Positions 2,309 to 35,874 of a DNA stretch of 64,000 bases are shown piece after piece (position 1 is the first letter of the stretch; each line of letters starts with the position of its first letter). The notes beneath the pieces are model-generated. The model was not told where the DNA came from. It saw only the letters and a list, made by a program, of their open reading frames with translations, and did no database searches. The DNA comes from Maribacter aquivivus (GTDB taxonomy: Bacteria > Bacteroidota > Bacteroidia > Flavobacteriales > Flavobacteriaceae), in contig NZ_FQZX01000004.1 in assembly GCF_900142175.1 (NCBI RefSeq), positions 47,012 to 111,011 on the forward strand. Direction: 5' to 3'. The position numbers were made by a program, and so were the translations under genes.

Positions 2309-2324
2309 ACGCTTCGCGTTTTTT
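2309..2324 (+). terminator. Short hairpin plus T-run (ACGC-TTC-GCGT then T6)
   Basis: A 4-bp GC stem with a three-base loop is followed by six Ts, 16 bases after the stop of the secreted-protein gene. The identical 16-base block recurs at 12949-12964, in both cases followed directly by a TATTAA-type heptad array. It may therefore be part of a repeat scaffold rather than a dedicated terminator. Confidence 0.45.
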
Positions 2325-2352
2325 GTATTAAGTATTAAGTACAAAGTATTAA
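2325..2352. repeat. Heptad array (GTATTAA)n
   Basis: Four consecutive heptads: GTATTAA, GTATTAA, GTACAAA, GTATTAA. It follows the hairpin block at 2309-2324, as does the similar array at 12965-12987. Confidence 0.85.
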
Positions 2353-2402
2353 GCCGTTCGAGCTAACTCTTGATTTCTTTAATTGGTCATTTAAAATTGG
2401 TA

Positions 2403-2437
2403 TTACGTACTTTTTACTTAGTACTCTTTACTATAGC
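2403..2437. repeat. Degenerate heptad array (CTTnnTA)n
   Basis: Heptads TTACGTA, CTTTTTA, CTTAGTA, CTCTTTA, CTATAGC run in register up to the start of the palindromic element at 2447. Confidence 0.65.
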
Positions 2438-2446
2438 AAAACGAAA

Positions 2447-2573
2447 TGTCAGTTCGAGTGAATTTTTGAAGCATGAGAAAATTTGTATCGAGAACCTTTG
2501 CATGTTCCATACCTGTTCTCGACACAATTTTATGTCTCCGCTATGCTTCATCATAAAACCACTCGAAGTGACA
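2447..2573. repeat. Palindromic element, copy 1 (TGTCAGTTCGAGTG ends)
   Basis: A 127-bp element with 14-bp terminal inverted repeats (TGTCAGTTCGAGTG at 2447-2460; CACTCGAAGTGACA at 2560-2573) and an inner inverted pair (ATCGAGAAC / GTTCTCGA). It has no coding capacity. It looks like a REP- or MITE-type element common in flavobacteria. Further copies are at 2679-2804 and 30477-30600, with a partial copy near 51379-51432. Confidence 0.85.
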
Positions 2574-2627
2574 TTGATTATATTAATGCCACAGATTGCC
2601 ACGTCGCGGAATGCTCCTCGCAATGAC

Positions 2628-2669
2628 GTATACTTTTTATTTAATACTTAGTACTCTTTACTATAAGTA
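2628..2669. repeat. Heptad array (TAnTACT)n
   Basis: Heptads GTATACT, TTTTATT, TAATACT, TAGTACT, CTTTACT, ATAAGTA lie between the two palindromic elements. Confidence 0.65.
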
Positions 2670-2678
2670 AAACGAAAT

Positions 2679-2804
2679 GTCAGTTCGAGTGAATTTTTGA
2701 AGGATGAGAAAATTTGTATCGAGAACCTCTGCGTGTTCCATACCCGTTCTCGATACAATTTTATGACTCAGCTCTACTACATCATAAAACTACTCGAACT
2801 GACA
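2679..2804. repeat. Palindromic element, copy 2
   Basis: Same structure as the element at 2447-2573. The left end is TGTCAGTTCGAGTG (2679-2692), the right end TACTCGAACTGACA (2791-2804), and the inner pair is ATCGAGAAC/GTTCTCGAT. Confidence 0.85.
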
Positions 2805-2858
2805 TTGATTATATTAATGCCACAGATTGCTACGTCTCTAAATGCTCCTCGCAATGAC

Positions 2859-2914
2859 GTATACTTTTTACTTAAGACTTTGTATTTCGTACCTCGTACC
2901 TCGTACTTAAAACT
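2859..2914. repeat. Eight-copy heptad array (TCGTACC type)
   Basis: Eight heptads in strict register: GTATACT, TTTTACT, TAAGACT, TTGTATT, TCGTACC, TCGTACC, TCGTACT, TAAAACT. The array closes the duplicated repeat block. Confidence 0.8.
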
Positions 2915-3014
2915 TCCCCTAACAACTCAGCATCCAAAACCTACAATTCGGTTATATTGTTTAGTTTCATAATTATGATTACTCCATCTTTGAATAACAT
3001 AAAACCAACCAACC

Positions 3015-3674
3015 ATGGAAAACATCATTGAAATCTTCATTTATATTCATGCCTTTTTTGGTGGTGTGGGGCTAATTACTGGTATTGCTAGTATTGTTGT
3101 AAAAAAAGGAAGGTTAAACCACAAGCGTCTTGGTAAATGGTTTTCGTGGTCTATGATTATTAGTTCTGCGATTTCTTTGGTAATTGCGCGAATGCCCAAC
3201 CACATAAATACCTTTTTATTCTTAATAGGCATTTTTACTATTTATATGGTGCTGGCGGGTAATAGAGCGCTCACATTTAAATCAATAAAAAAAACAAAAG
3301 CAAATTTGACCGATAAATTGGTTTCGGGTAGCATGGCTTTTTCGGCTTTATTAATGATTGGGTTTGGCATCAACGGACTTATTAACGGTTATTCTCACAG
3401 CATTCTTTATCTGTTCTTTGGAATAATAGGTCTATTTCTACCTTACGGAGATTACAAACTATTTAAAAGCACATTAGAAAACAGGAAGCTTTGGCTCATA
3501 AATCATCTTAGTAGAATGTTAGGTGCCCTCATAGCCTCGGTTACCGCATTTATAGTTGCAGGTATGCACCAAGATACACTTTGGGCATGGATTACACCAT
3601 CCGTTATAGGAACTGCCTATATTATCTACTGGATTAAAAAAACGAAAGGAAAAAAGAAACTTAAAACAGCTTAA
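3015..3674 (+). CDS. Integral membrane protein, function unknown
   Basis: This 219-residue protein is mostly hydrophobic, with about six membrane segments and a lysine-rich C-terminal tail (KKTKGKKKLKTA), which is probably cytosolic. The first segment has His and Gly residues (YIHAFFGGVGLITG), and LNHKRLGKWF forms a conserved-looking loop. It resembles uncharacterised DUF2306-like bacterial membrane proteins, but I would not assign a function. The ATG at 3015 follows an AT-rich leader. Its stop codon overlaps the stop of the convergent gldC gene by four bases. Confidence 0.75.
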   Translation: MENIIEIFIYIHAFFGGVGLITGIASIVVKKGRLNHKRLGKWFSWSMIISSAISLVIARMPNHINTFLFLIGIFTIYMVLAGNRALTFKSIKKTKANLTDKLVSGSMAFSALLMIGFGINGLINGYSHSILYLFFGIIGLFLPYGDYKLFKSTLENRKLWLINHLSRMLGALIASVTAFIVAGMHQDTLWAWITPSVIGTAYIIYWIKKTKGKKKLKTA

Positions 3675-4012
3675 TCTTTTTCTTTAAGATTTAGGTTTTC
3701 TGCAAAGTAATCACAGAAATCTTTCATGGTAGCCGTCATTTTATCATCTTGTGTTGCCTTCAAAAAGGTATCGGTCAAAGAAACCAATGTCTGATGAAAA
3801 AATGTTTTCATCTCATCTACAGGCATATCTTTTGTCCACAGGTCAATTTTTAACGACTCTTGATTTTTACTATCCCAAACAGATAAAAGCATTGCTTTTG
3901 CTTCCTCGTTTTCAATACCACCGTCTTGTGCAGACCAGTTTAATGTTTCCGGAATTCTATTTTCATCTAATCCTACGCGCAGTGTAATTTCTGAAGTATG
4001 TAAATCTGCCAT
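3671..4012 (-). CDS. gldC: Gliding motility protein GldC
   Basis: This 113-residue protein without a signal peptide matches GldC, including the N-terminal MADLHTSEITLRVGLDENRIPE and the WSAQDGG segment. In Flavobacterium johnsoniae GldC is needed for full gliding and works with GldB; its biochemical role is still unclear. It starts on the base after the gldB stop codon, so the two are surely cotranscribed and probably translationally coupled. The gene order gldB-gldC matches other gliding Bacteroidetes. Length and sequence are intact. Confidence 0.93.
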   Translation of the reverse strand: MADLHTSEITLRVGLDENRIPETLNWSAQDGGIENEEAKAMLLSVWDSKNQESLKIDLWTKDMPVDEMKTFFHQTLVSLTDTFLKATQDDKMTATMKDFCDYFAENLNLKEKD

Positions 4013-5011
4013 CTAATTTCTCGGTTTGTAATTTGATTTCTTAAATATTTCTTCCGCAGGCATTGTCATTAGTTGCTTAATGCTTACGTCATTATTATTC
4101 ATAAAGGCACGCACAATTTGCCAACCCACGTAACGACCTAGTCTCCCCGGCGATTCGTTGTCCAATTCTAATCCGAATTTAGAAAACGGAGCTGGTTCTA
4201 AAAATCGCTGATTCAATTTATTATCGGTACTATATAAATATTCGTTTTCAATAAAATTTCTCCACATAGGCTCTTCATTGGCAACTGCCCAATCCATTTC
4301 CTCTTGTGAATATCCTATTTTTTTATCATCGCCCGCTTCTGGCATCAATTTATCCTTAAGGTATAATTCTTTTCCAAAATAAACCATTCGCGCAAGATAT
4401 GTACGGTCTCTAGGTTTTGGCACAACTTGCTTAGCAAATGAACTAGCGACATCACTCACTAAAAAATTACGATCTAAAGAGTGTGCTATGTAACGTTGAA
4501 AGCCGCCATAATATTTATGCTCAGATCCTAAGTAATTATCAAGACTGATAAATAACAAACTATCGGTTAGGATAATCCTATTATTGTAATCAACATCATT
4601 AGTTACCGTAAGTACTTTTGGGACCTTGTATTCTGGGAAATAATATTTGATGTGTTTGAATAATTGTACCAGTCCTTCTTCTTCAACTTCAAAACTACGA
4701 AAGGCATTACCCACCTCTTGAAACAATTCTATTTGTAGAGAATCCTCCATCTTGGCAATCCAAACACTATCTGGTGCCGGAAACAAGTACGGATACGTTT
4801 TACGCAATGCCGGTAACCCCTTCTCGCCAGAAGCGGCAAACTCACGATCAAATCGCGAAATTTTAAGGTCTATCGGTATAGCAGCAATCTCTTCGGCGAC
4901 CTTATCACTATCATTACAGCTAGAAAGAATGAAAAAAACTGATAATAGTATAAAAATAGGTTTGACCTTGGTAAGTATTTTACAATACATTTTATTATTC
5001 ACAGTGTTCAA
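4013..5011 (-). CDS. gldB: Gliding motility lipoprotein GldB
   Basis: This is a lipoprotein of about 332 residues. The hydrophobic signal ends in a lipobox (FFILSSC), so the mature protein is acylated at Cys. The segment with FDREFA and the region around HYYGGFQRYIAHSLDRNFLV are characteristic of GldB, an essential component for gliding in F. johnsoniae that interacts functionally with the type IX secretion/gliding apparatus. An in-frame ATG seven codons in (position 4990) gives a more usual signal peptide (MYCKILTKVKPIF) and may be the real start. It is transcribed divergently from nadE, with a possible promoter at 5025-5032, and is followed directly by gldC. Confidence 0.93.
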   Translation of the reverse strand: MNTVNNKMYCKILTKVKPIFILLSVFFILSSCNDSDKVAEEIAAIPIDLKISRFDREFAASGEKGLPALRKTYPYLFPAPDSVWIAKMEDSLQIELFQEVGNAFRSFEVEEEGLVQLFKHIKYYFPEYKVPKVLTVTNDVDYNNRIILTDSLLFISLDNYLGSEHKYYGGFQRYIAHSLDRNFLVSDVASSFAKQVVPKPRDRTYLARMVYFGKELYLKDKLMPEAGDDKKIGYSQEEMDWAVANEEPMWRNFIENEYLYSTDNKLNQRFLEPAPFSKFGLELDNESPGRLGRYVGWQIVRAFMNNNDVSIKQLMTMPAEEIFKKSNYKPRN

Positions 5012-5024
5012 CTTATTTTTATGG

Positions 5025-5032
5025 CAAAGTTA
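5025..5032 (-). promoter_or_regulatory. Possible -7 box (TAACTTTG) for gldBC
   Basis: This is an exact match to the Bacteroidetes -7 consensus TAnnTTTG, read on the minus strand 14 bases upstream of the annotated gldB start. No convincing -33 TTTG is visible at the usual distance. If real, it would favour the internal gldB start at 4990. Confidence 0.35.
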
Positions 5033-5060
5033 ATTGATTTTACTAAATAATTAGAGCGGT

Positions 5061-5849
5061 ATGCAAACGGAAAAGGTAATTGAGCACATTGTTAATTGGT
5101 TAAAGGATTATGCTACAAATGCAAAACAGAAAGGTTTTGTCATTGGTATATCTGGCGGAATAGATTCTGCAGTCACTTCAACCCTATGTGCAAAGACAGG
5201 TTTAGACCTTCTTTGTTTAGAAATGCCAATTCACCAAGCCGAGAATCAAAGTGACCGAGCATCTCGACATATTGAATGGTTACAAGAGAATTTTAAGAAT
5301 GTAAAAAGACAACCGGTAAACCTTACACCCGTGTTCGATAGTTTGGTAGCTGCCTTACCTACTGTTGACAATGAAGAGGACAGATTTATGTCTTTAGCAA
5401 ATACACGTGCACGTTTACGCATGACCAGTCTTTATTATTTTGCTGCTCTAGAACGCTACCTTGTAGCCGGAACCGGTAATAAGGTGGAGGATTTTGGAGT
5501 TGGCTTTTACACCAAATACGGAGATGGCGGCGTAGATTTGAGTCCGATAGCTGATTTAATGAAAACCGAAGTTTATGCCATTGCAAAGGTTTTAGGCATT
5601 AACGAAGAGATAATAGGTGCTGCACCAACTGATGGATTGTGGGGCGATGACAGAACAGATGAAGATCAAATAGGTGCTTCTTACCCTGAGCTAGAATGGG
5701 CAATGGACATGAAGGACGAGGGTAAAACAATTAATGACTTTGAAGGTAGAAAGAAAGAGGTCTTTACTATATTCATGAGACTGAATACAATGAACCAACA
5801 TAAAATGTTACCAATACCTGTTTGTGAGATTCCAAAACAGTTAAAATAA
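5061..5849 (+). CDS. nadE: NH3-dependent NAD+ synthetase
   Basis: This 262-residue enzyme converts deamido-NAD+ to NAD+ with ATP and ammonia, the last step of NAD biosynthesis. The PP-loop ATP pyrophosphatase motif GISGGIDSAVTS lies near the N-terminus. GTGNKVEDFGVGFYTKYGDGGVD forms the deamido-NAD/ammonia site, followed by the PTDGLW loop. There is no N-terminal glutaminase (nitrilase) domain, so free ammonia is expected to be the donor. The length is typical for the ammonia-dependent form. It is divergent from gldB. Confidence 0.93.
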   Translation: MQTEKVIEHIVNWLKDYATNAKQKGFVIGISGGIDSAVTSTLCAKTGLDLLCLEMPIHQAENQSDRASRHIEWLQENFKNVKRQPVNLTPVFDSLVAALPTVDNEEDRFMSLANTRARLRMTSLYYFAALERYLVAGTGNKVEDFGVGFYTKYGDGGVDLSPIADLMKTEVYAIAKVLGINEEIIGAAPTDGLWGDDRTDEDQIGASYPELEWAMDMKDEGKTINDFEGRKKEVFTIFMRLNTMNQHKMLPIPVCEIPKQLK

Positions 5850-6014
5850 CAACTCATCTAAGAATCAAGGTATTAAATCGAAAATAAAGTCTGAAATTAT
5901 ACGTTACTAATAAAATAATGCAACTTTGACTTCTAATTTAGAATTTTAAGCCTTACATTGCATGTAGTCTTTTCAGACAAAAAGGTTCCAAAATCTATAT
6001 AAAAAAAACAATTA

Positions 6015-6644
6015 ATGATCAAAGTTTTAATAGCGGATAACCACCCTATCATAAGAATGGGAGTTAGGAAGGTTCTAGAATCCGCTGAGGGATTTGAACT
6101 GATCGATGAGGTAGCTACTACCGAAGAACTTTTTGAAAAACTTAAAGACACAACCCCCGATGTAGTCATGCTAGAAATGGATATTCCTGATGTAAATGGA
6201 ATAGCGGCATTACGAAGAATTAAAAAAGATTACGCGGACGTAAAAGTCCTTATGTACAGCGGTCAATCTGAAGATGTTTACGCCTTAAGTGCCATTAGAG
6301 CTGGTGCATTCGGGTATTTATCGAAATCTTCTGGTGTAGAATACATTACTGCAGCAGTAACTAAAGTAAGTGAAGGTAGCATGTTTATTACAAACGAACT
6401 TGCACAGCGTCTTGCTTTCGATGAAGGAACTAAAAAACCAAGAAGGTTCTTTAGAAAACTATCTACTAGAGAAATAGAAGTATTAAAACTTTTAGCTAGT
6501 GGTAAACGTAACAAAGAAGTTGCATTAGGTTTGAACCTAAATGAAAAAACAGTTAGTACCTATAAAGCTCGTTTAATGAAAAAATTAAATGTAGATAATA
6601 TGGTAGATTTATTACAACAGGCAAAAGCCTTAGAATTGTACTAA
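6015..6644 (+). CDS. NarL/LuxR-type response regulator with Glu at the phospho-acceptor site
   Basis: This 209-residue protein has an N-terminal receiver domain (about 1-120) and a C-terminal LuxR helix-turn-helix (about 145-205: LSTREIEVLKLLASGKRNKEVALGLNLNEKTVSTYKARLMKKL). The phospho-acceptor aspartate, normally in a VVLLDIRMP context, reads VVMLEMDIP, placing Glu54 where Asp is expected. The acidic pair is Asp8/Asn9, and Lys is retained in GYLSKSS. A Glu at this place often mimics phosphorylation, so the protein may be constitutively active or atypically regulated. Asp56, two residues on, is an alternative acceptor. No kinase gene is nearby. It is a singleton ended by a strong terminator. 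Confidence 0.88.
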   Translation: MIKVLIADNHPIIRMGVRKVLESAEGFELIDEVATTEELFEKLKDTTPDVVMLEMDIPDVNGIAALRRIKKDYADVKVLMYSGQSEDVYALSAIRAGAFGYLSKSSGVEYITAAVTKVSEGSMFITNELAQRLAFDEGTKKPRRFFRKLSTREIEVLKLLASGKRNKEVALGLNLNEKTVSTYKARLMKKLNVDNMVDLLQQAKALELY

Positions 6645-6668
6645 ATTCTTACAACTGAATAAAATATA

Positions 6669-6696
6669 AAAAGACCTGCTTTGCGGGTCTTTTTTA
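6669..6696 (+). terminator. Intrinsic terminator between response regulator and dnaG
   Basis: The stem AAGACCTGC/GCGGGTCTT (one G-T pair, TTT loop) is followed by a T-run. The A-run on the other side makes it usable in both directions, for the convergent response regulator and dnaG genes. Confidence 0.85.
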
Positions 6697-6716
6697 TTTA
6701 TGATACTTTCTAAAAA

Positions 6717-8702
6717 TCAAGACAATACCCTATTTAATTTTTTATTTAGCAATTTATTCAACTGAATGTAATTCATAATCTCTTCAAGAACTTCTCTATG
6801 ATCTGTAGCAGAATCTTGAGTAGTGTTTTGCAATGTTGTCATTCTTTTTTTAATTAAAAAACAACGTAATGTCAGTATCGTCTCACTTACCAACTGCGCA
6901 ACACCTATTTCTTTACTCTTTGGAAAAATTTCTTTACGCTCCCAGTCATCTAACTTATACCGTTCCTCTTCCATTAAAATAGAAGATATCTGGTTTGCCA
7001 TTTCTTGCTCTAAACCATTAACAAAATTGGTGATCGAAAACTCCTCTTTTTCATTTAAGGCTTCAATCAATCTAGCGTACATTTTACGGAAATCTTCATT
7101 GGCCAATTCTATTTCATCTTCTTGCAGATCCAAATAGATTTTCTCGTATACCTTAATTTCAGATAACTCTGGCTCCAACACCAAATCTCCGGCATCATTT
7201 TCCTTTAATACCAAATCTTCAAACTGCTCTTTGAGATTACCATACAGCATAAGCGATTCAATAATTTTTCGCTCTAGCAAATACTGTACATCAACTTTTT
7301 CTTCTTTTTCCTGATCTGTATTACGAACAACATCAAAAGCTTTCTGCTCCTCCTTTTGTGTTGCTTGTATATTCTTTTCTTCTTTCTTACCTATCTGAGC
7401 AAGGGTATTATACAAAACTGCTTCAGATATGTTCATGATCTGCGCACACTCTTGAATATATATCTCTTGCTGTATGCGATCGGGAATCTTAGCAATACTG
7501 TTCACGATATCCCTAACTGTATCTGCTCTCTTTATGGGATCGTTATCTGCCTCTTTTACCAGAAGCGACGCCTTAAACTGAATAAAATCTTTAGAGTTGT
7601 CATTAAGATAGGTCATGACATCTTCTAACTCATTATTCTTGGCAAAACTGTCTGGATCTTCACCCTCTGGAAATGTACAAACGCGCACATTCATACCTTG
7701 TTCCAAAATAAGATCTATACCACGAAGCGATGCTCGTAAACCTGCCGCATCACCATCAAATAATACCGTGATATTTTTGGTCAATCTATTTATTAACCTA
7801 ATCTGTTCTGGCGTCAAAGCCGTACCACTAGAAGATACCACGTTATCAATACCGCGTTGTACAAATTGAATAACATCCGTATACCCTTCTACCAAATAAC
7901 AATTATCTTCTTTAGCAATAGATTGCTTTGCATGGTAAATACCGTACAACACCTTACTCTTATGGTAGATGTCACTTTCAGGAGAATTCAGATACTTGGC
8001 CGCCTTTTTATCGTTCGTTAAAATACGACCACCAAAACCCAATACACGACCACTTAAAGAGTGGATAGGAAACATCACCCTACCTTTGAACCTGTCAAAT
8101 TTTCTAGACCCATTTGGGTTATTAGAATCTTCTTTAACTATGGTTAATCCTGTTTTTGAAAGGTATTCTAGTTTATATCCTTTATCTAAAGCTGCAGTTG
8201 TAAATCCGTCCCATTGATCTAGGCAATATCCTAACTCAAATTTCTTGATGATTTCATCAGTAAAGCCACGCTCCTTAAAATAACTAAGCCCTATTGCTTT
8301 ACCCAACTCTGATTCCCACAACATTTCTTTAAAATGCGTTTGGGCAAATTCTGACACCAAGTACATGCTCTCACGTTCGCTAGCTTGTTCTTTTTGTTCG
8401 TTAGATTGTTCGGTTTCCTCTACTTCAACATTATATTTCTTTGCTAAGTATTTTATAGCCTCAGGATACGTAAAATGCTCATGCTCCATTAAAAAAGCAA
8501 CCACATTACCACCTTTACCACTACTAAAATCTTTCCAAATCTGCTTTACCGGCGATACCATAAAACTTGGTGATCGCTCATCAGAAAAAGGGCTAAGTCC
8601 TTTAAAGTTGGACCCTGATTTTTTTAGCTGTACAAAATCACCAATAACCTCTTCTAGTCGAGCGGTTTCATATACTTTATCTATGGTAATTTTTGAAATC
8701 AT
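6717..8702 (-). CDS. dnaG: DNA primase DnaG with degenerate zinc-binding module
   Basis: This 661-residue primase makes RNA primers at the replication fork. The N-terminal CHC2-type domain, the catalytic TOPRIM core (YLVEGYTDVIQ with the later DGDAAG acidic motif) and a C-terminal helicase-binding region are all present. The zinc ligands of the N-terminal ribbon are gone: the CPFH motif reads SPFS (Ser37, Ser40) and the CxxC motif reads DFSS (Asp58, Ser61), while surrounding residues (RSPSFMVSP, GKGGN) are kept. The fold seems preserved without the metal. I believe other flavobacterial primases share this, but that needs an alignment. The C-terminal third is divergent, as usual. It converges on the response regulator. 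Confidence 0.94.
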   Translation of the reverse strand: MISKITIDKVYETARLEEVIGDFVQLKKSGSNFKGLSPFSDERSPSFMVSPVKQIWKDFSSGKGGNVVAFLMEHEHFTYPEAIKYLAKKYNVEVEETEQSNEQKEQASERESMYLVSEFAQTHFKEMLWESELGKAIGLSYFKERGFTDEIIKKFELGYCLDQWDGFTTAALDKGYKLEYLSKTGLTIVKEDSNNPNGSRKFDRFKGRVMFPIHSLSGRVLGFGGRILTNDKKAAKYLNSPESDIYHKSKVLYGIYHAKQSIAKEDNCYLVEGYTDVIQFVQRGIDNVVSSSGTALTPEQIRLINRLTKNITVLFDGDAAGLRASLRGIDLILEQGMNVRVCTFPEGEDPDSFAKNNELEDVMTYLNDNSKDFIQFKASLLVKEADNDPIKRADTVRDIVNSIAKIPDRIQQEIYIQECAQIMNISEAVLYNTLAQIGKKEEKNIQATQKEEQKAFDVVRNTDQEKEEKVDVQYLLERKIIESLMLYGNLKEQFEDLVLKENDAGDLVLEPELSEIKVYEKIYLDLQEDEIELANEDFRKMYARLIEALNEKEEFSITNFVNGLEQEMANQISSILMEEERYKLDDWERKEIFPKSKEIGVAQLVSETILTLRCFLIKKRMTTLQNTTQDSATDHREVLEEIMNYIQLNKLLNKKLNRVLS

Positions 8703-12675: not shown

Positions 12676-12757
12676 TTGCTCTTTATTAGAACGGCAAAAT
12701 TAGTCAAAAGCAAGCAGTTAACAGTACTCAGCAAGGAGATAATGGATTAAAGGGATT

Positions 12758-12794
12758 GGTTGTTGGTTGTTGGTTGTTGGTTGTTGGTTGTTGG
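12758..12794. repeat. Heptad array (GGTTGTT)5
   Basis: Five perfect GGTTGTT copies are followed by GG. The plus strand is G-rich with GG pairs at regular spacing, which could form a two-tetrad G-quadruplex. A short relic (GTTGTTGGTTGATTG) stands in the equivalent place before the hairpin at 2309. Confidence 0.95.
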
Positions 12795-12802
12795 AAAAAA
12801 TA

Positions 12803-12855
12803 AGTTCAAGTTCAAAACTCAAGTTCAAATACAAATACAAAAAACAAGCTCAAAA
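12803..12855. repeat. Degenerate TTCAA-type heptad array
   Basis: Units containing TTCAA/CTCAA/CAAAT recur at about 7-base spacing (TTCAAGT, TCAAAAC, TCAAGTT, CAAATAC, AAATACA). It bridges the GGTTGTT and TTTTGGC arrays. The period is less strict here. Confidence 0.5.
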
Positions 12856-12860
12856 ATGAA

Positions 12861-12947
12861 TTTTGGCTTTTGGCTTTTGGCTTTTGGCTTTTGGCTTTTG
12901 GCTTTTGGCTTTTGGCTTTTGGCTTTTGGCTTTTGGCTTTTGGCTTT
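12861..12947. repeat. Heptad array (TTTTGGC)12
   Basis: Twelve perfect, uninterrupted TTTTGGC copies plus TTT. The perfection suggests recent expansion or ongoing length change. It lies upstream of the polyprenyl synthase gene. The open frame 12760-12966 across it encodes only low-complexity FGFWLLA repeats and is not a gene. Confidence 0.97.
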
Positions 12948-12948
12948 A

Positions 12949-12987
12949 ACGCTTCGCGTTTTTTAGTATTAAGTATAAAGTACTAAG
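12949..12987. repeat. Hairpin block plus AGTATTA-type heptads
   Basis: The 16-base block ACGCTTCGCGTTTTTT (12949-12964), identical to 2309-2324, is followed by heptads AGTATTA, AGTATAA, AGTACTA. The order of parts (G-rich heptads, hairpin block, TATTAA heptads) is the same as at 2295-2352. Confidence 0.8.
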
Positions 12988-13070
12988 ATATTACGTTAGT
13001 ATTTGCTCTAGTAATTCGTTTTACTGAATACTATATTCTCTCTTTTGCAACCTAGTATTACTGATTTTGG

Positions 13071-13098
13071 ACTTCGTACTTAATACTTTGTACTTCCC
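13071..13098. repeat. Heptad array (ACTTnnT)4 touching the rlmN stop
   Basis: Heptads ACTTCGT, ACTTAAT, ACTTTGT, ACTTCCC end at the base next to the rlmN stop codon. The array belongs to the GTAC-rich subfamily. Confidence 0.75.
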
Positions 13099-19357: not shown

Positions 19358-21448
19358 CTATTGCGCTAAGTTAATTTCAACACGTCTATTTTTTTGTCTA
19401 CCATCTTTATACATATTGGTAGCAATTGGTTTACTTTCTCCATAACCTACAGATGTTAATCTAGAAGGAGAGACACCACCATCTATTAAGAATTGTAATA
19501 CTGCCTTAGCTCTTTTCTCTGATAATTGTTGATTAGTTGCTTCAGAACCCACACTATCTGTATGACCTTCAATGGTGAAATTAGCATTTGGGTATTCATT
19601 CAAAATACTAATAATATCAACTAAAACAGGTGTAGATTCATCTTTAAGCGTAGATTTACCTGTCGTAAACAAAATTGTTTTTGCATACTCGTTCAATGAC
19701 TTTTGAACCTCAGCGGTAACTACCGGCTCTGGACAACCTTTATTTGCAACCGTACCCATTTCATTAGGGCATTCATCATCTTTATCAAGTACAGAATCTC
19801 CATCAGAATCTGCCCAAGGACAACCATTATTCTCTACTGGACCTGCCTCATCTGGACATTGATCTTCATTGTCCATTATTGTATCACCATCAGTATCTAC
19901 CCATGGGCATCCGTTGTTTTCTACTGGTCCTGCTTCTTCTGGACATTTATCTTCATTATCCATTACAGTATCACCATCAATATCTCCCCAAGGGCAACCG
20001 TTGTTTTCAATTGGACCTGCTTTTTTAGGACAACCGTCTTCTTTATTTGGTATACCATCACCATCAGAATCCTTAGGCTGACCATAATAAACAGGCACTT
20101 TTAAACCTGCATATATATCTGCACCTTGAATTTCATTTTTTGTGAATGTAGAAATCAATGACCCTGAACCAATATATAATGGTCCGGCACGTAAACCTGC
20201 ACCTACTTGCAAGCCACTATACTGATAGCTACTTACCGGCAAATAGAAACTAAACCACTTACTTTCAAAACGAGGGGTCAATGAAAATACATTTGCTGTT
20301 CTTAGATTATTTTCACCCGCAGAACGCATTGACAAATCGGTATTAAAGTTTAAATAAAAATTATTCTTAATATTCCAATCTGCGTTAAAATGAAGTGCAG
20401 TTGGTAAACCCGCTTTCATATCTTCTGTTGCCTGAGTAAACGTATACAAGTTCTGTAAATCATCAGAATCTTCAATATTATCATAATCATCTTGGGTAAT
20501 AGTATTGTTGATATTGTAAGTATCCATTAAACTACCCTTATAATTAACCGACCCAACATCTGTAAGTGACAAGCCAAATTTAAGCTTGTACTTGTTTTTG
20601 TCTTTCATTACGGTTTTCTCACCATCAGCACCCGTAACCTCATAATCTTTATAGTCCGGTCTCCACTCATAAACGAAACCTAAATCTAATCCGAATCCGT
20701 TTGCATCTGGCACTTCATAGTCATAGTTGTCATCATCATAATCATCTGCACGACCATAGATTAAATCGCCCGTAGATTCCAATGTTCCAATAGTAGAGCT
20801 ATTTGGCAATGTTGCCCCATCTGCATCATAATCTATAGTTACATTTCTACCGGCAACATACGCGTTACCAAATCCTTTTAAATATTTTAACGAAAGACCA
20901 CCTTTTAAAAAGTGCTCTTCTTTGTTCATTAATTCTTGAGCGTAAGTAATACCTACTTCTGCCCAACCGTGACCAGCTGCAAAGAAATCTCCTTCATCTA
21001 CCAAGAAGTCTTGACTTTCATCAATACTATCATCTAGGTCATCAATACTTTCGCCGTTAAATTCATTACCGGTAACAAAACTTCTTGCCCTTGTAAAAAC
21101 GGCTATAGATGATGTTCTACCTACGTTAAACATAAATGACGGACCTAACACATCTACATTACCCGAAAAATTGTTATTGTCTGAAAGCGATAATATAGCG
21201 TCATCATCATACTCAAAATCACTCGATATTAAATCTGAATATCCTACGCCAACATAGTCATTGGCAAGAAAACCACTTACACCAACTAAATTGATGTCTG
21301 TTTTAAAACGGGAATCTGCAATATTCGCGGGGTTGGAAATGACTCCGTTTACCCCACTATAATTATCGGTTAAATAGCCAATATAGGATTGTGCTTTTAC
21401 TGATAGTGAAGCAACGAACATAATGGCAAATAATACTACTTTCTTCAT
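19358..21448 (-). CDS. OmpA-family outer-membrane protein with TSP3 repeats
   Basis: This 696-residue protein has, in order, a signal peptide (to VKAQ), a large beta-barrel-like domain of the DUF5723 type (about 20-460), four thrombospondin type-3 calcium-binding repeats (about 463-580, pattern [15 protein letters not shown] and ENNGCPW), and a C-terminal OmpA peptidoglycan-binding domain (about 595-696, GHTDSVG and LSEKRAKAV). It probably tethers the outer membrane to peptidoglycan. The TSP3 repeats are also near-identical at DNA level (about 90-bp units), a possible site of repeat-number change. The gene is followed by no partner on its strand. Confidence 0.88.
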
Positions 21449-31747: not shown

Positions 31748-34477
31748 CTAATCAACTATGTTCGGCGCTAGCCATCTTTCTGCCTTCTCCAGAGATATAT
31801 CTTTACGTTCTGCAAAATCTTTAACCTGATCATCTTTTATTTTTCCTAATCCAAAATAACGTGCTTCTGGATTTCCAAAATAATACCCACTAACCGATGC
31901 TGCTGGCCACATTGCCAAACTATCCGTTAATTCTACCCCTATAGTTTCATTAACTTTTAAAATATCCCAAATGGTCAATTTCTCTAAGTGATCAGGACAA
32001 GCAGGATAACCTGGTGCAGGACGAATACCTTTGTATGATTCTTTAATTAAATCTTCATTGCTCAAATCTTCATTTGCAGCATAACCCCAATGTTTCATAC
32101 GCACTTCTTTATGCAAATATTCCGCAAAAGCCTCTGCCAAACGATCTGCTAAGGCTTTTACCATTATAGAATTATAATCATCTAAATCCTTTTCATATTT
32201 AGCCGCTAATTCTGCCGTACCAAACCCTGTAGACACGCAAAAACAACCCATATAATCTTGCCTACCAGATTCTTTAGGTGCTATAAAATCTGCCAATGCA
32301 TAATCTGCAACACCCTCTCTTTTCTGTAATTGTTGGCGAAGTGTTCTAAATGTAAAATGCTCTTCATCTCGCCCTTCAACTTCACTTAAAGTGATATCAA
32401 TATCATCCTCATTAATTGAGTTTGCCGGGAACAATCCAAAAATACCTTTTGCCTTCAATTTCTTTTCAGAAATAATTTTGTTCAGCATTGCTTTAGCATC
32501 TGCAAATAATTCGGTCGCTTGTTCTCCAACTACCTCATCGGTAAGTATAGCAGGGTATTTACCATGTAATTCCCAACTTCTAAAAAACGGAGTCCAATCA
32601 ATAAATGGTACTAGTATATTTAAATCTAAATCTTCAATAACCTGAATACCTAATTTGTTTGGTTTAACTATCTCAGAGGTTTTCCAATCGATCTTAAATT
32701 TATTTCTACGTGCAGCAGAAATAGGCTTGTAGGTTTTACTTGAAGAACGATTTAAGAACTTTTCCCTAAAAACATCATAATCATCCTTAATGCTCTTTTT
32801 ATAGCCTTTTGAAGTATCTTTTTGAAGCAAATCTCCCACAACGGTTACCGCCCTAGACGCATCATTTACATGCACTACAGCTTCATTGTATTGCGTATCA
32901 ATTTTTACTGCCGTATGTGCTTTACTTGTGGTTGCACCACCAATTAACAACGGAATCTTGAAGTCTTTACGTTCCATTTCCTTCGCTAAATGCACCATTT
33001 CATCTAATGACGGCGTAATCAATCCGCTAAGTCCTATAATATCTACATTGTGCTCAATGGCGGCTGCAATTATTTTTTCTGGTGGCACCATGACTCCTAA
33101 GTCAACAATCTCATAATTGTTACATGCCAAAACAACACCAACAATATTCTTACCAATATCATGCACATCACCTTTAACGGTTGCCATCAATATTTTACCT
33201 GCATTATCAGAATCTCCTTCTTGCGGATTCAATAACTTTTCTTCTTCTATGTATGGTAATAGATAAGCTACCGCCTTCTTCATTACTCGGGCAGATTTCA
33301 CTACTTGTGGCAAGAACATCTTTCCGCTTCCAAATAAATCACCAACCACATTCATACCGGTCATTAGATTTCCTTCAATAACCTGAATTGGCTTATCGGC
33401 AGCTAATCTGGCTTCTTCTACATCTTCTACTATGTATTGATCAATACCTTTTACCAAGGCACGTGTAATTCTATCTTGTAATGGCTCTTCTCTCCAAGAT
33501 AAATCTATCTTACTTTCTTTTGTTTTACCAACTACAGACTCTGCAAAATCTAGTAAACGCTCTGTTGCATCATCTCTTCTATTAAGAATAACATCTTCTA
33601 CACGTTCTAATAAATCTTTAGGAATATCATCGTAAACCTCTAGCATACTTGGGTTAACGATACCCATATTCATACCTGCTTTAATAGCATGGTACAAGAA
33701 AACAGAATGCATTGCCTCACGCACAGGATTGTTTCCCCTAAACGAAAACGAAACATTACTGACACCTCCACTAACACTTGCATGTGGTAAGTTTTCACGA
33801 ACCCATTTTGTAGCTCTGATAAAATCGAGAGCATTCAATTTATGCTCGTCCATACCTGTAGCAACAGGGAAAATATTTAAATCAAAAATGATATCTTCTG
33901 GTGCAAAATTGACTTTATTTACCAAAACATCATAAGAACGCTTTGCTATTTCAATACGTCGGTTATAATTATCTGCTTGTCCAACCTCATCAAATGCCAT
34001 CACGATTACCGCAGCACCATATCTTTTAATCAATTTTGCATGATGCAAAAATTGCACTTCACCTTCCTTTAAACTAATAGAGTTTACTACACACTTACCC
34101 TGCACTACTTGTAAACCAGCCTCAATGATTTCCCATTTAGAACTATCTATCATAATAGGAACACGAGAAATATCTGGCTCGGCAATGACCAAATTCAAAA
34201 ATTTGACCATGGCCTCTTTTCCATCAATCAGACCATCATCCATATTAATGTCGATAACCTGCGCTCCATTTTCTACCTGCTCCCTTGCAACCGCCAGTGC
34301 CTCTTCAAATTTCTCCTCCTTTACAAGACGAAGAAACTTTTTAGAACCTGCAACATTTGTTCGTTCACCAACATTGATAAAGTTAGTCTCGGGGGTAACA
34401 ATCAAGGGTTCTAATCCGCTTAGTTTTAAAAAGCGTTGCTCGTTGCTCGTTGCTCGTTGTTCGTTTTTTGTACTCAT
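31748..34477 (-). CDS. metH: Cobalamin-dependent methionine synthase, C-terminal part (pterin, B12 and activation domains)
   Basis: This 909-residue protein carries the last three MetH modules: methyl-THF (pterin)-binding barrel (about 25-290, [14 protein letters not shown]), B12-binding region with the axial His motif DVHDIGKN near residue 435, and the SAM-dependent reactivation domain (about 580-909, [20 protein letters not shown]). The homocysteine-binding module is the separate gene at 34870-35874. The first 15 residues ([15 protein letters not shown]) are encoded by a four-copy heptad repeat (34435-34465), so a change of one unit would shift the frame. Its ATG overlaps the stop of the inserted S23-family gene by four bases. 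Confidence 0.93.
34435..34465 (-). repeat. Heptad array (AACGAGC/GTTGCTC)4 inside the metH-C start
   Basis: On the plus strand the units are GTTGCTC three times, then GTTGTTC and GTT. On the minus strand the core is AACGAGC. It occupies codons 4-15 of metH-C. The AACGA core also occurs in the opposite orientation at 34848-34868, on the other side of the S23-family gene. Confidence 0.92.
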
Positions 34478-34821
34478 AATTTCTTGTGATAGTTTATGAA
34501 TCCGTTCAACAACTTTTTAACTCTTTCTATTTCTTTCAAAACGTTATCTATATCTGAAATGTAATTTAAATCTCCGGCTAAAATCAACTGCGTTTCCAGC
34601 TCATATAAAGAACCTCTCGCTATATGTAAAAAATGAATAGTCTCCTTATTGGATTGCCTTCCACAACCTTCTGCAATATTTGATGGTACAGAAATAACAC
34701 ATCGTCTAACCTGCGAGGTTAAAGAAAATTGTTCGTCTTTTGGAAAGGACTTTGTCAAAACATAAACTGTTTTAACAAGTACTCTAGCCTGCACCCAAAT
34801 GTCTAAATCTTTATAATCCAT
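34474..34821 (-). CDS. Four-helix-bundle protein, S23/23S-rRNA intervening-sequence (IVP) family
   Basis: This 115-residue all-alpha protein has the family signature: [51 protein letters not shown] and, near the end, [12 protein letters not shown]. Founding members are encoded in intervening sequences of split 23S rRNAs. Related Avd proteins assist diversity-generating retroelement reverse transcriptases. No rRNA is near here. Instead it sits between the two halves of metH, its stop overlapping the metH-C start (ATGA). It is flanked by heptad arrays of the same AACGA core in inverted orientation, which suggests arrival as a mobile unit. The function is unknown. Confidence 0.87.
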
Positions 34822-34847
34822 TTAATTTTTATAACTACGATAAACCA

Positions 34848-34868
34848 TTAACGAGAAACGAAAAACGA
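34848..34868 (+). repeat. Heptad array (nAAACGA)3 touching the metH-N stop
   Basis: Heptads TTAACGA, GAAACGA, AAAACGA end one base before the metH-N stop codon. The AACGA core is the same as in 34435-34465 but on the opposite strand, so the two arrays bracket the S23-family gene as inverted repeats. Confidence 0.8.
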
Positions 34869-34869
34869 T

Positions 34870-35874
34870 TTATTTACTAACAACTGTCAACTTTCTAGGT
34901 TCATATTTAGCCACCATATTTGCTATCGCCGTAATATGCTCTGGTGTTGTTCCACAACAACCTCCTACAATATTTACTAATCCTTTTTCTGCGTATTCTT
35001 TTATTTGTGCTGCCATTTGCTCTGGAGTCTCATCATATTCCCCAAACGCATTTGGTAAACCTGCATTAGGGTGTGCAGAAACTGCATGCTCACTTTTTTT
35101 AGATAATACTTCTAAATGAGGTACCAGCTGACTTGCGCCTAAAGCGCAATTAAACCCTACCGATAAAATTGGAATATGTGAAATGGATATTAAAAAAGCT
35201 TCCGCTGTTTGTCCGGACAATGTTCTACCCGAAGCATCGGTAATTGTACCGCTCACCATAATTGGCACATCAATATTTCTTTCCTCTTTTACTTCTTCTA
35301 TAGCAAATAAAGCTGCTTTTGCATTTAAGGTATCAAATATGGTTTCTACCAATAATAAATCTGAACCACCATCTAACAAAGCTTCAACTTGTTGTTTATA
35401 GGCTATTCTTAATTCATCAAAAGACACGGCTCTATATCCTGGGTCATTTACATCTGGAGACATGCTTGCCGTCTTATTTGTGGGTCCTATACTACCAGCT
35501 ACAAATCGTGGTTTATTAGGTTCTTTCGCAGTGAATTCATCAGCTACTTTTTTCGCAATACGTGCAGATTCATAGTTAAGCTCATACACCAAATCTTCCA
35601 TGTAATAATCTGCCATGGCAATTGTTGTACCCGAAAATGTATTGGTCTCCACAATATCTGCCCCTGCAGCAAAGTATTTACGATGAACCTCAGCAATTGC
35701 CTCAGGTTGGGTTAGCGATAATAAATCATTATTGCCTTGTAAAGGGTGTTCCCATTCTTTAAAACGTTCTCCCCTAAAATCTTCCTCAGTAAATTTATAG
35801 CGTTGTAGCATCGTACCCATGGCACCATCTAATATGAGAATTCGCTCTTTTAAAATTTCTTTTATATCCTTCAT
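34870..35874 (-). CDS. metH: Methionine synthase homocysteine-binding module (homocysteine S-methyltransferase domain)
   Basis: This 334-residue zinc-dependent homocysteine-binding barrel corresponds to the first module of MetH. It begins [15 protein letters not shown]. The zinc ligands are in VGFNCALGA and [14 protein letters not shown]. It must act together with the separately encoded pterin/B12/activation protein (31748-34477). Splitting of MetH at this point is known in Bacteroidetes. Upstream is a SAM-I riboswitch, so synthesis should fall when SAM is plentiful. Immediately downstream are a heptad array and the S23-family gene. Confidence 0.93.

Follow-up and report, generated by a model that had tools for sequence, protein, structure and literature searches.

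A 115-residue S23/IVP protein is encoded on the minus strand at positions 34474-34821 of a 64,000-nucleotide stretch of Maribacter aquivivus contig NZ_FQZX01000004.1 (hereafter the window), where its gene lies between two inverted arrays of heptad repeats at the junction of metH-N and metH-C. The preferred interpretation, with a probability of roughly 0.6, is that this is the cargo gene of an exchangeable cassette of about 0.5 kb, a relative of the 23S rRNA intervening sequence (IVS) that occupies an operon junction and behaves in a homing-like manner between species. The combination of an S23 gene with inverted arrays recurs at many loci and in many phyla, with family-specific repeat words, mostly in sense orientation and with purifying selection on the protein at fixed sites, and whole cassettes have been exchanged at metH and hemW. 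The features of the metH locus are as follows:

34474..34821, minus strand: S23/IVP (four helix bundle) gene, 115 aa, candidate cassette cargo (PF05635, TIGR02436)
34434..34465, minus strand: arm downstream of the S23 stop codon, 4.6 heptads of AACGAGC on the gene strand (CGTTGCT on the plus strand)
34850..34868, minus strand: arm upstream of the S23 start codon, three degenerate heptads with an AACGA core on the plus strand
34425..34885, minus strand: whole cassette as RNA, predicted by folding to have the arms closing a stem and the S23 frame in the loop
34877..34891, minus strand: possible remnant of an older arm with another word (GTTGACAGTTGTTAG, gene strand)
31748..34477, minus strand: metH-C (methionine synthase without homocysteine domain), downstream neighbour (PF00809, PF02607, PF02310, PF02965; NF007024)
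34870..35874, minus strand: metH-N (homocysteine S-methyltransferase), upstream neighbour (PF02574, 342.5 bits)

In the profile search the protein matched PF05635 with 132.5 bits (cut-off 33.8) and TIGR02436 with 129.4 bits (cut-off 24), and gave weak matches below the cut-offs for bAvd (PF22296, 24.3 of 40 bits) and Avd (NF033474, 26.4 of 80 bits). Tandem Repeats Finder returned period 7 for both arms, with 96% matches in the downstream array and 2.7 copies of AACGAAA (plus strand) in the upstream one; read inward on the gene strand the latter is CGTTTNT, and it pairs with 34454-34471 at 83% over 18 nt. The element therefore carries an S23/IVP gene between inverted heptad arrays, as the first-pass annotation, made from sequence alone, had proposed. 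The same annotation held that an insertion had split metH; this does not stand, since in the 8 of 30 genus loci where the site is empty, metH-N and metH-C are separate frames too. The downstream arm sits within the 5' coding part of metH-C, whose start overlaps the S23 stop by 4 bp, and the possible older remnant now belongs to the last codons of metH-N, at a position whose equivalent is occupied by GTTGNNG-type arms in some relatives. The S23 frame lies in the loop between the terminal inverted repeats of the cassette, and the cassette itself is located outside a 23S rRNA gene, between metH-N and metH-C; a search of 33800-35400 against Rfam gave no match up to E 0.1. No transposase was found in it, as the 115-aa protein gave only PF05635 and the bAvd-like match in Pfam, nor did that protein match any nuclease family there.

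The arms were quantified by an arm score, the best local match between the 150 bp upstream of a gene and the reverse complement of the 150 bp downstream. Three sets were scored: a genus set (the window plus 20 stretches), a same-phylum draw, and a set of named loci from many phyla, the best 80 of at least 583 confirmed matches, picked by a conserved peptide. The loci of the genus set and the same-phylum draw are best-scoring matches, in most cases a single one per genome. S23 open reading frames (ORFs) were recovered from 76 of the 80 named loci (none from L072, L073, L097 and L134, where L denotes a locus and, below, G a genome), and 81 of 84 hits had enough flank. The ORF start was set at the first ATG, GTG or TTG, and some flanks are therefore shifted.

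Genus S23 genes (n = 22) had a median score of 27.5, with 14 at 24 or above and 9 at 30 or above, against a median of 17, with 11 and none, for 261 control ORFs; the metH cassette gene scores 30. The named S23 ORFs (n = 81) had a median of 30, with 56 reaching 24 and 41 reaching 30, compared with 27 and 10 of the 430 named-locus controls (maximum 73), and in the same-phylum draw a score of at least 24 was found for 15 of 29 S23 genes and 6 of 58 controls. Across the three sets, control genes with arms amounted to 4-10%. Left arms fit their own right arms, because permuting the right arms among the 81 named genes lowered the mean score from 31.8 to 16.4 (standard deviation 0.45; maximum of 10,000 permutations 18.3). 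The M. aquivivus genome itself holds five PF05635 genes, all between inverted short-period arms (scores 28-71), whose words are AACGA at metH, CGCTNNN at leuA-like/leuB, GCTTTTA at L003, CAGTNNN at ruvC/hemW and AAGTTC (period 6) at recJ; one of the five passed a strict lag-7 test. The names leuA, leuB, ruvC, hemW and recJ come from a reading of the translations, with no family search. PF05635 genes occur in 34 of 36 genus genomes, and S23 genes in 232 of the 296 same-phylum genomes searched.

In three sets of stretches, with some loci in two of them, strong arrays numbered 182, 118 and 261 per 100 kb next to S23 genes, compared with 5.7, 6.7 and 9.6 in the remainder of those stretches, about 18- to 32-fold lower, so that the enrichment near S23 genes suggested at the outset was borne out. 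Strong 7-bp arrays numbered one in 400 kb of evenly spaced stretches of the M. aquivivus genome (two at a laxer threshold), and the 64-kb window holds seven strong heptad regions (nine at the laxer threshold). It is hardly credible that the arrays are a chance or mutational by-product, common in gaps, with S23 genes merely lying in array-rich gaps. Arrays without S23 do exist (window 2321-2915 and 12751-12951; L126), but this explanation is contradicted by the rarity of strong arrays in the genome (1-2 in 400 kb) and by matched arms, which occur much more often at S23 genes than at control genes and fit their own partner arm. One such array in the window is a matched inverted heptad pair at 2317-2654 (AGTATTA, score 35) with no S23 gene between, overlapped by a 231-bp unit of 2.1 copies at 2408-2884.

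The reverse test asked which matched inverted short-period pairs, 150-900 bp apart, enclose S23. This was so for 5 of 5 pairs in the genus stretches and 56 of 76 in the named loci, shares which are not genome-wide rates because these stretches were chosen for S23; in the window it was one of two pairs, and in 400 kb of the M. aquivivus genome none of one. Eleven of the 20 named exceptions come from one array-rich Chloroploca record (L123), two of which do lie over its S23 gene; those of L072 and L134 lie over an S23 match missed by the ORF or profile step, and those of L078, L105, L131 and L132 begin or end at an S23 arm. At 3178-7833 the L123 record (Candidatus Chloroploca) is densely filled with GGTGTCA heptad arrays of either direction, which surround its S23 gene. 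Among the ten high-scoring controls, four (L119, L131, L073 and L072) have an arm in common with an S23 match or overlap one on the opposite strand, L066 is a GxxExxY gene by its first residues, and three (L126, L084 and L077) have no explanation; the remaining two, L067 and L064, resemble RAYT transposases by motif. The proposed link between S23 genes and 7-bp arrays holds far beyond metH, but no single repeat word is used throughout, and some arrays have no S23 gene.

Period, polarity and orientation were compared across the named set. The best period was 7 in 54 and 14 in 8 of the 81 S23 genes, compared with controls (n = 283) in which the best lag was spread over 3-15 and was 7 or 14 in 49. 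The median arm length is 28 bp, about four units (56 arms), and the word varies between loci and is common to both arms of one locus. On the gene strand the upstream arm is G-rich (G exceeds C in 51 of the 56 arms scoring at least 24) and the flank below the S23 gene is C-rich (61 of 81), with controls near balance in both cases. Both neighbours were codirectional in 64 of 78 named S23 genes and both opposed in none, against 210 and 30 of 338 controls; in a set from multi-copy genomes, both were codirectional in 24 of the 25 genes with both neighbours called.

The words also differ by protein family. Main S23 arms are enriched in GTTGT, TTAGT, TGAGA and AGTGA. A divergent S23 subfamily, which includes the M. 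aquivivus gene of L005, reached an arm score of 24 in 22 of 30 loci, with a best lag of 7 or 14 in 20 of 30 and with TCAAT, TTGAA and TCGAA enriched. GxxExxY genes (TIGR04256; L299-L328), scored at 28 of 30 loci since two were too short, had arms of at least 24 in 23, with CAGAG enriched 19.7-fold; none of these had a best lag of 7 or 14, and their CACAGAG/CGCAAAG arrays (also L066 4630-5040) have best lags mostly of 8-12. Within the main S23 family the correlation between arm and protein similarity is weak (Spearman 0.17 over 1540 pairs). That the words follow the enclosed protein family suggests that protein and array belong together. REP/RAYT elements, in which a gene is flanked by inverted repeat units and solo units occur elsewhere (repetitive extragenic palindromes and their associated tyrosine transposases), resemble the S23 cassettes in these two respects and differ in that no transposase was found in the cassette, its word changes from site to site, and its arms are short-period arrays, not single hairpins. 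A DNA-hairpin element of this kind, with arms moved in trans by a host or other transposase and S23 as a passenger or accessory, would accommodate the solo arms, the arm pairs without S23 and the two RAYT-like genes that the arm score also picks out. However, a single genome has arms of different sequence at its various sites, which would not be expected of ends recognised by one transposase, and the words of the arms follow the enclosed protein family, which makes such an origin quite improbable. At L275 (about 1489-1845) each arm is itself hairpin-like in heptads (AAGCTTTAAGC type) and also pairs with the opposite arm.

The cassettes occupy fixed sites across the genus in a patchy manner. 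At metH an S23 gene was present in 19 of 30 loci, with arrays on both sides in 18 by eye and a left arm of about one unit in the nineteenth (G028); 8 loci were empty and 3 unreadable. The occupied relatives bear out the link of the first-pass annotation at this site. At ruvC-hemW, 13 of 30 loci had S23 with CAGTNNN arms, 8 had S23 of another subfamily with CAATNNN arms, one had a broken S23 with AGTA-type arms, 3 were empty and 5 unreadable. At leuA-leuB (L195-L224), 6 of 30 loci had S23, 11 had no clear arm, 3 were not fully readable, and arms were found without S23: the right arm only in 3, the left only in 4, and two arrays of unlike words in G008, G002 and G016. Where the expected peptide motif was missing the locus was left out, which applied to 3 of 30 at metH, 5 of 30 at hemW and 1 of 30 at leuB. 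Within sites, arms vary in copy number and order. The empty metH sites of G026, G011, G014, G004 and G019 hold about 1.5-2.5 AACGAAC units, and those of hemW in G001, G022 and G020 have no seed heptad. The arms may have been amplified from a heptad already present at the target; alternatively, the AACGAAC units may be remnants, because G026, G011 and G019 nest among occupied genomes. At metH in L025, L022 and L140, AACGA arms are nested within remnants of a GTTGATG-type arm that are confined to the left side, which may point to recombination between cassettes.

The S23 proteins are conserved. Five site groups had more than one usable pair, and their median ratios of nonsynonymous to synonymous divergence (dN/dS) were 0.04-0.13, indicating purifying selection; pairs with dS outside 0.05-1.5 were dropped, and the metH-AACTGTC group, with one usable pair of dN 0, lies outside the reported range.

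Evidence of exchange between species comes from a tree of three genes adjoining the cassettes, which covers the 22 genomes with all three genes; the same genomes define the type-change and dS analyses. Cassette type at metH changed 10 times on this tree (minimum 3, shuffled mean 11.7), a count that was the same with metH-N left out. For hemW there were 8 changes in 21 genomes, G005 being omitted (minimum 2, shuffled mean 7.5), and for leuB 9 (minimum 3; mean after shuffling 11.4, with a count this low in 4.6% of shuffles). Cassette type at metH and hemW is nearly random with respect to the tree. Pairs of genomes that are diverged elsewhere carry almost the same S23 gene: its dS against that of the three housekeeping genes was 0.014 vs 0.959 in G030/G034, 0.044 vs 1.156 in G007/G015, 0.029 vs 0.884 in G005/G021 and 0.058 vs 0.836 in G030/G031. 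In the four groups compared, S23 dS was less than half of the housekeeping value in 15 of 21, 11 of 15, 36 of 51 and 16 of 28 pairs, and exceeded that value in 0, 0, 4 and 5 pairs (for hemW-CAGT 51 of 55 pairs were usable). Constraint on the S23 protein alone is insufficient to explain this, because synonymous sites carry the contrast and divergence is seen in other pairs. Fixed-site presence at metH and hemW is, like the dS contrast, incongruent with the host tree, as would be expected of a homing-like element.

The exchanged unit is roughly the cassette. Identity between G030 and G031 is 0.97-1.00 arm to arm, against 0.77-0.98 ahead of this tract and 0.82-0.93 beyond it; the pairs G030/G034 and G005/G021 have a similar tract with slightly different ends, so that the shared tract runs roughly arm to arm in 3 of 4 profiled pairs. 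The reverse situation is found in G007/G009, which are 0.90-1.00 identical outside a stretch of 0.63-0.82 made up of the cassette and the adjoining end of metH-N, and which carry unlike cassettes. These data bear on the possibility that S23 is an ordinary operon gene, a TRAP-like host regulator whose binding to the arrays of its own mRNA or DNA would tune its neighbours, with no selfish cassette. Purifying selection, fixed operon sites, a heptad spacing suited to a multimeric binder and the stop-start overlap at metH could all be read in this way, but the patchy presence with many empty sites, the swapping of unlike S23 cassettes at one site, the arm-to-arm transfer and the varied operons around the named genes make it decidedly unlikely.

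Several results weigh against the cassette interpretation. A substantial share of S23 genes score below 24 (8 of 22 genus, 25 of 81 named and 14 of 29 same-phylum); most of the 14 same-phylum low scorers have heptad-like arrays by eye, unscored, and Rfam, run on 18 mostly low-scoring loci, found no rRNA around them. In the strict lag-7 test, a strong array lay on at least one side of 27 of 56 genus S23 genes and on both sides of 13, with some loci counted twice. Both neighbours are opposed in 1 of the 25 genes of the multi-copy set (L289). Own arms fit better than orthologues' arms at metH (0 of 20,000 permutations, a test inflated because three word types were pooled), hemW-CAGT (p 0.0018) and leuB (p 0.044), and concerted arm change was not significant in one of the four groups, hemW-CAAT (p 0.18). 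One S23 pair has a dN/dS up to 0.97, and S23 genes with a stop codon retain both arms (G003 L034, G031 L171). Strict addiction, under which arms would never be kept without an intact S23, is rejected by these two genes. The shared tract of G007/G015 continues into metH-C. A comparison of 28 S23 genes (20 stretches, 8 multi-copy genomes) found no near-identical copies at separate sites within a genome, the best within-genome identity among the 25 closest pairs listed being 0.67, and movement to new sites was therefore not seen; the exchange could be ordinary homologous recombination. The mobile unit of the first-pass annotation is accordingly supported as regards whole-cassette exchange between species and not as regards movement to new sites in these 8 genomes. 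At L126 (414-3020) mirrored TACAACAATACATTA arrays scoring 73 bracket a metabolic gene (460-2850) that has no S23 beside it; the sole S23 frame of this locus, near 3992, is more than 1 kb away, and its own two arrays run in the same direction and are not inverted. Lastly, arm mismatches have no G-U enrichment (56 G-U vs 77 A-C in named loci, 49 vs 62 in the genus), and since at several loci the downstream start lies within the cassette, rRNA-like excision would behead that gene.

The last two points also bear on whether the element acts as RNA. Folding of 34425-34885 predicted a minimum free energy of -99.5 kcal/mol (z = -2.41, none of 100 shuffles as low), and selection on an RNA stem is unsupported by the mismatch test. 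The element could be an mRNA intervening sequence, with arms forming an RNA stem that RNase III cuts from the operon transcript and S23 either incidental or RNA-protecting, and this is an unlikely but serious candidate. It would agree with the S23 frame in the loop, the prevailing sense orientation, the predicted stem and the median arm of 28 bp, which is also the length of the RNase III-cut terminal stem of the Coxiella 23S rRNA IVS in the accessible text of PMC4990558. However, the lack of G-U enrichment, the purifying selection on the S23 protein and the position of downstream start codons, which at metH and several named loci overlap or abut the S23 stop inside the cassette, are at odds with it.

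A partnership with a reverse transcriptase, as for the Avd protein of diversity-generating retroelements, is rejected. The sub-cut-off Avd and bAvd matches are a weak likeness, and the M. aquivivus genome has no match to PF00078, a family with at least one member in 20 of 36 genus genomes. The available portion of PMC10053308 suggests that 4DWL and 2GSC are homologous. The solved S23 relatives 2gsc and 2rld have five chains each, and a toroidal homopentamer is cited for the Xanthomonas protein in the accessible part of PMC4990558.

The closest known system to the metH cassette is the 23S rRNA IVS. As far as the sources available in part describe it, the IVS of Coxiella and Leptospira has the same protein family, an ORF in the loop of an inverted repeat and the sense orientation; in contrast, the cassettes lie at protein-operon junctions with heptad arrays as both arms, and several occur per genome with different words. 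The accessible text of PMC4990558 describes three tandem GACAGAT heptads directly upstream of the Coxiella S23p start, so that one heptad case is already in print. It describes that ORF as undergoing reductive evolution, unlike the cassette S23 with its purifying selection, and calls the function and origin of S23-carrying intervening sequences unclear. Intergenic 7-bp direct repeats, many near start codons, are also known as the TAACTGA heptamers of Beggiatoaceae, Cyanobacteria and some Bacteroidetes (MacGregor 2015, PMC4679880, as far as its available text goes), a text in which a search found no 'four helix bundle', 'S23' or 'intervening'; S23 cassettes may account for part of such reported repeats. 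Heptamer satellites are described in Chloroflexus in the consulted portion of PMC6749651, and in a figure legend in the accessible part of PMC10910872 the 23S rRNA IVP family appears next to candidates linked to CRISPR. In a literature covered mostly outside subscription journals, none of the papers listed joins S23 or GxxExxY genes generally to such arrays.

Under the cassette interpretation, an S23/IVP gene with inverted arrays of about 7 bp, in sense orientation at an operon junction, would be expressed by read-through. Its protein, with five chains in each solved relative, probably recognises the heptads of its own arms, perhaps with one heptad per ring subunit, in analogy to TRAP, a ring protein that binds one repeat per subunit. 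Through such recognition the cassette would be copied to the same junction in another genome, and host recombination through flanks and arms may suffice for the transfer. A homing-like cycle of gain, fixation, decay and loss would fit because of the fixed sites, the empty and decayed states and the incongruence with the tree. Homing elements such as group I introns, inteins and homing endonuclease genes likewise have fixed sites, patchy presence, a constrained protein and decayed or empty states; S23 cassettes differ in that Pfam matched no nuclease family in S23 and neither splicing nor homing activity is known.

There is a fair chance that the cassettes form a wider class. We tentatively propose, at somewhat less than even odds, that S23, divergent S23 and GxxExxY proteins read arrays of their own family words and pass with them as a unit from species to species, homing to fixed operon junctions, as a class of small mobile cassettes not described before, of which the rRNA IVS would be a special case. 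To our knowledge, S23/IVP proteins have no known function. The present data link the family to a recurrent DNA partner, delimit the element and point to movement from one species to another, and the defined pieces make binding, excision and transfer testable.

Other repeats were observed in the window. An intergenic mosaic at 12751-13095 is composed of TTGGTTG (5.6 copies), AAGTTC, CAAATA, TTTTGGC (12.4 copies) and AGTATTA, with no S23 gene seen; a TTTTGGC array of 5.6 copies lies at the window edge (1-39), and an 87-bp tandem repeat of about three copies is present at 19770-20066.

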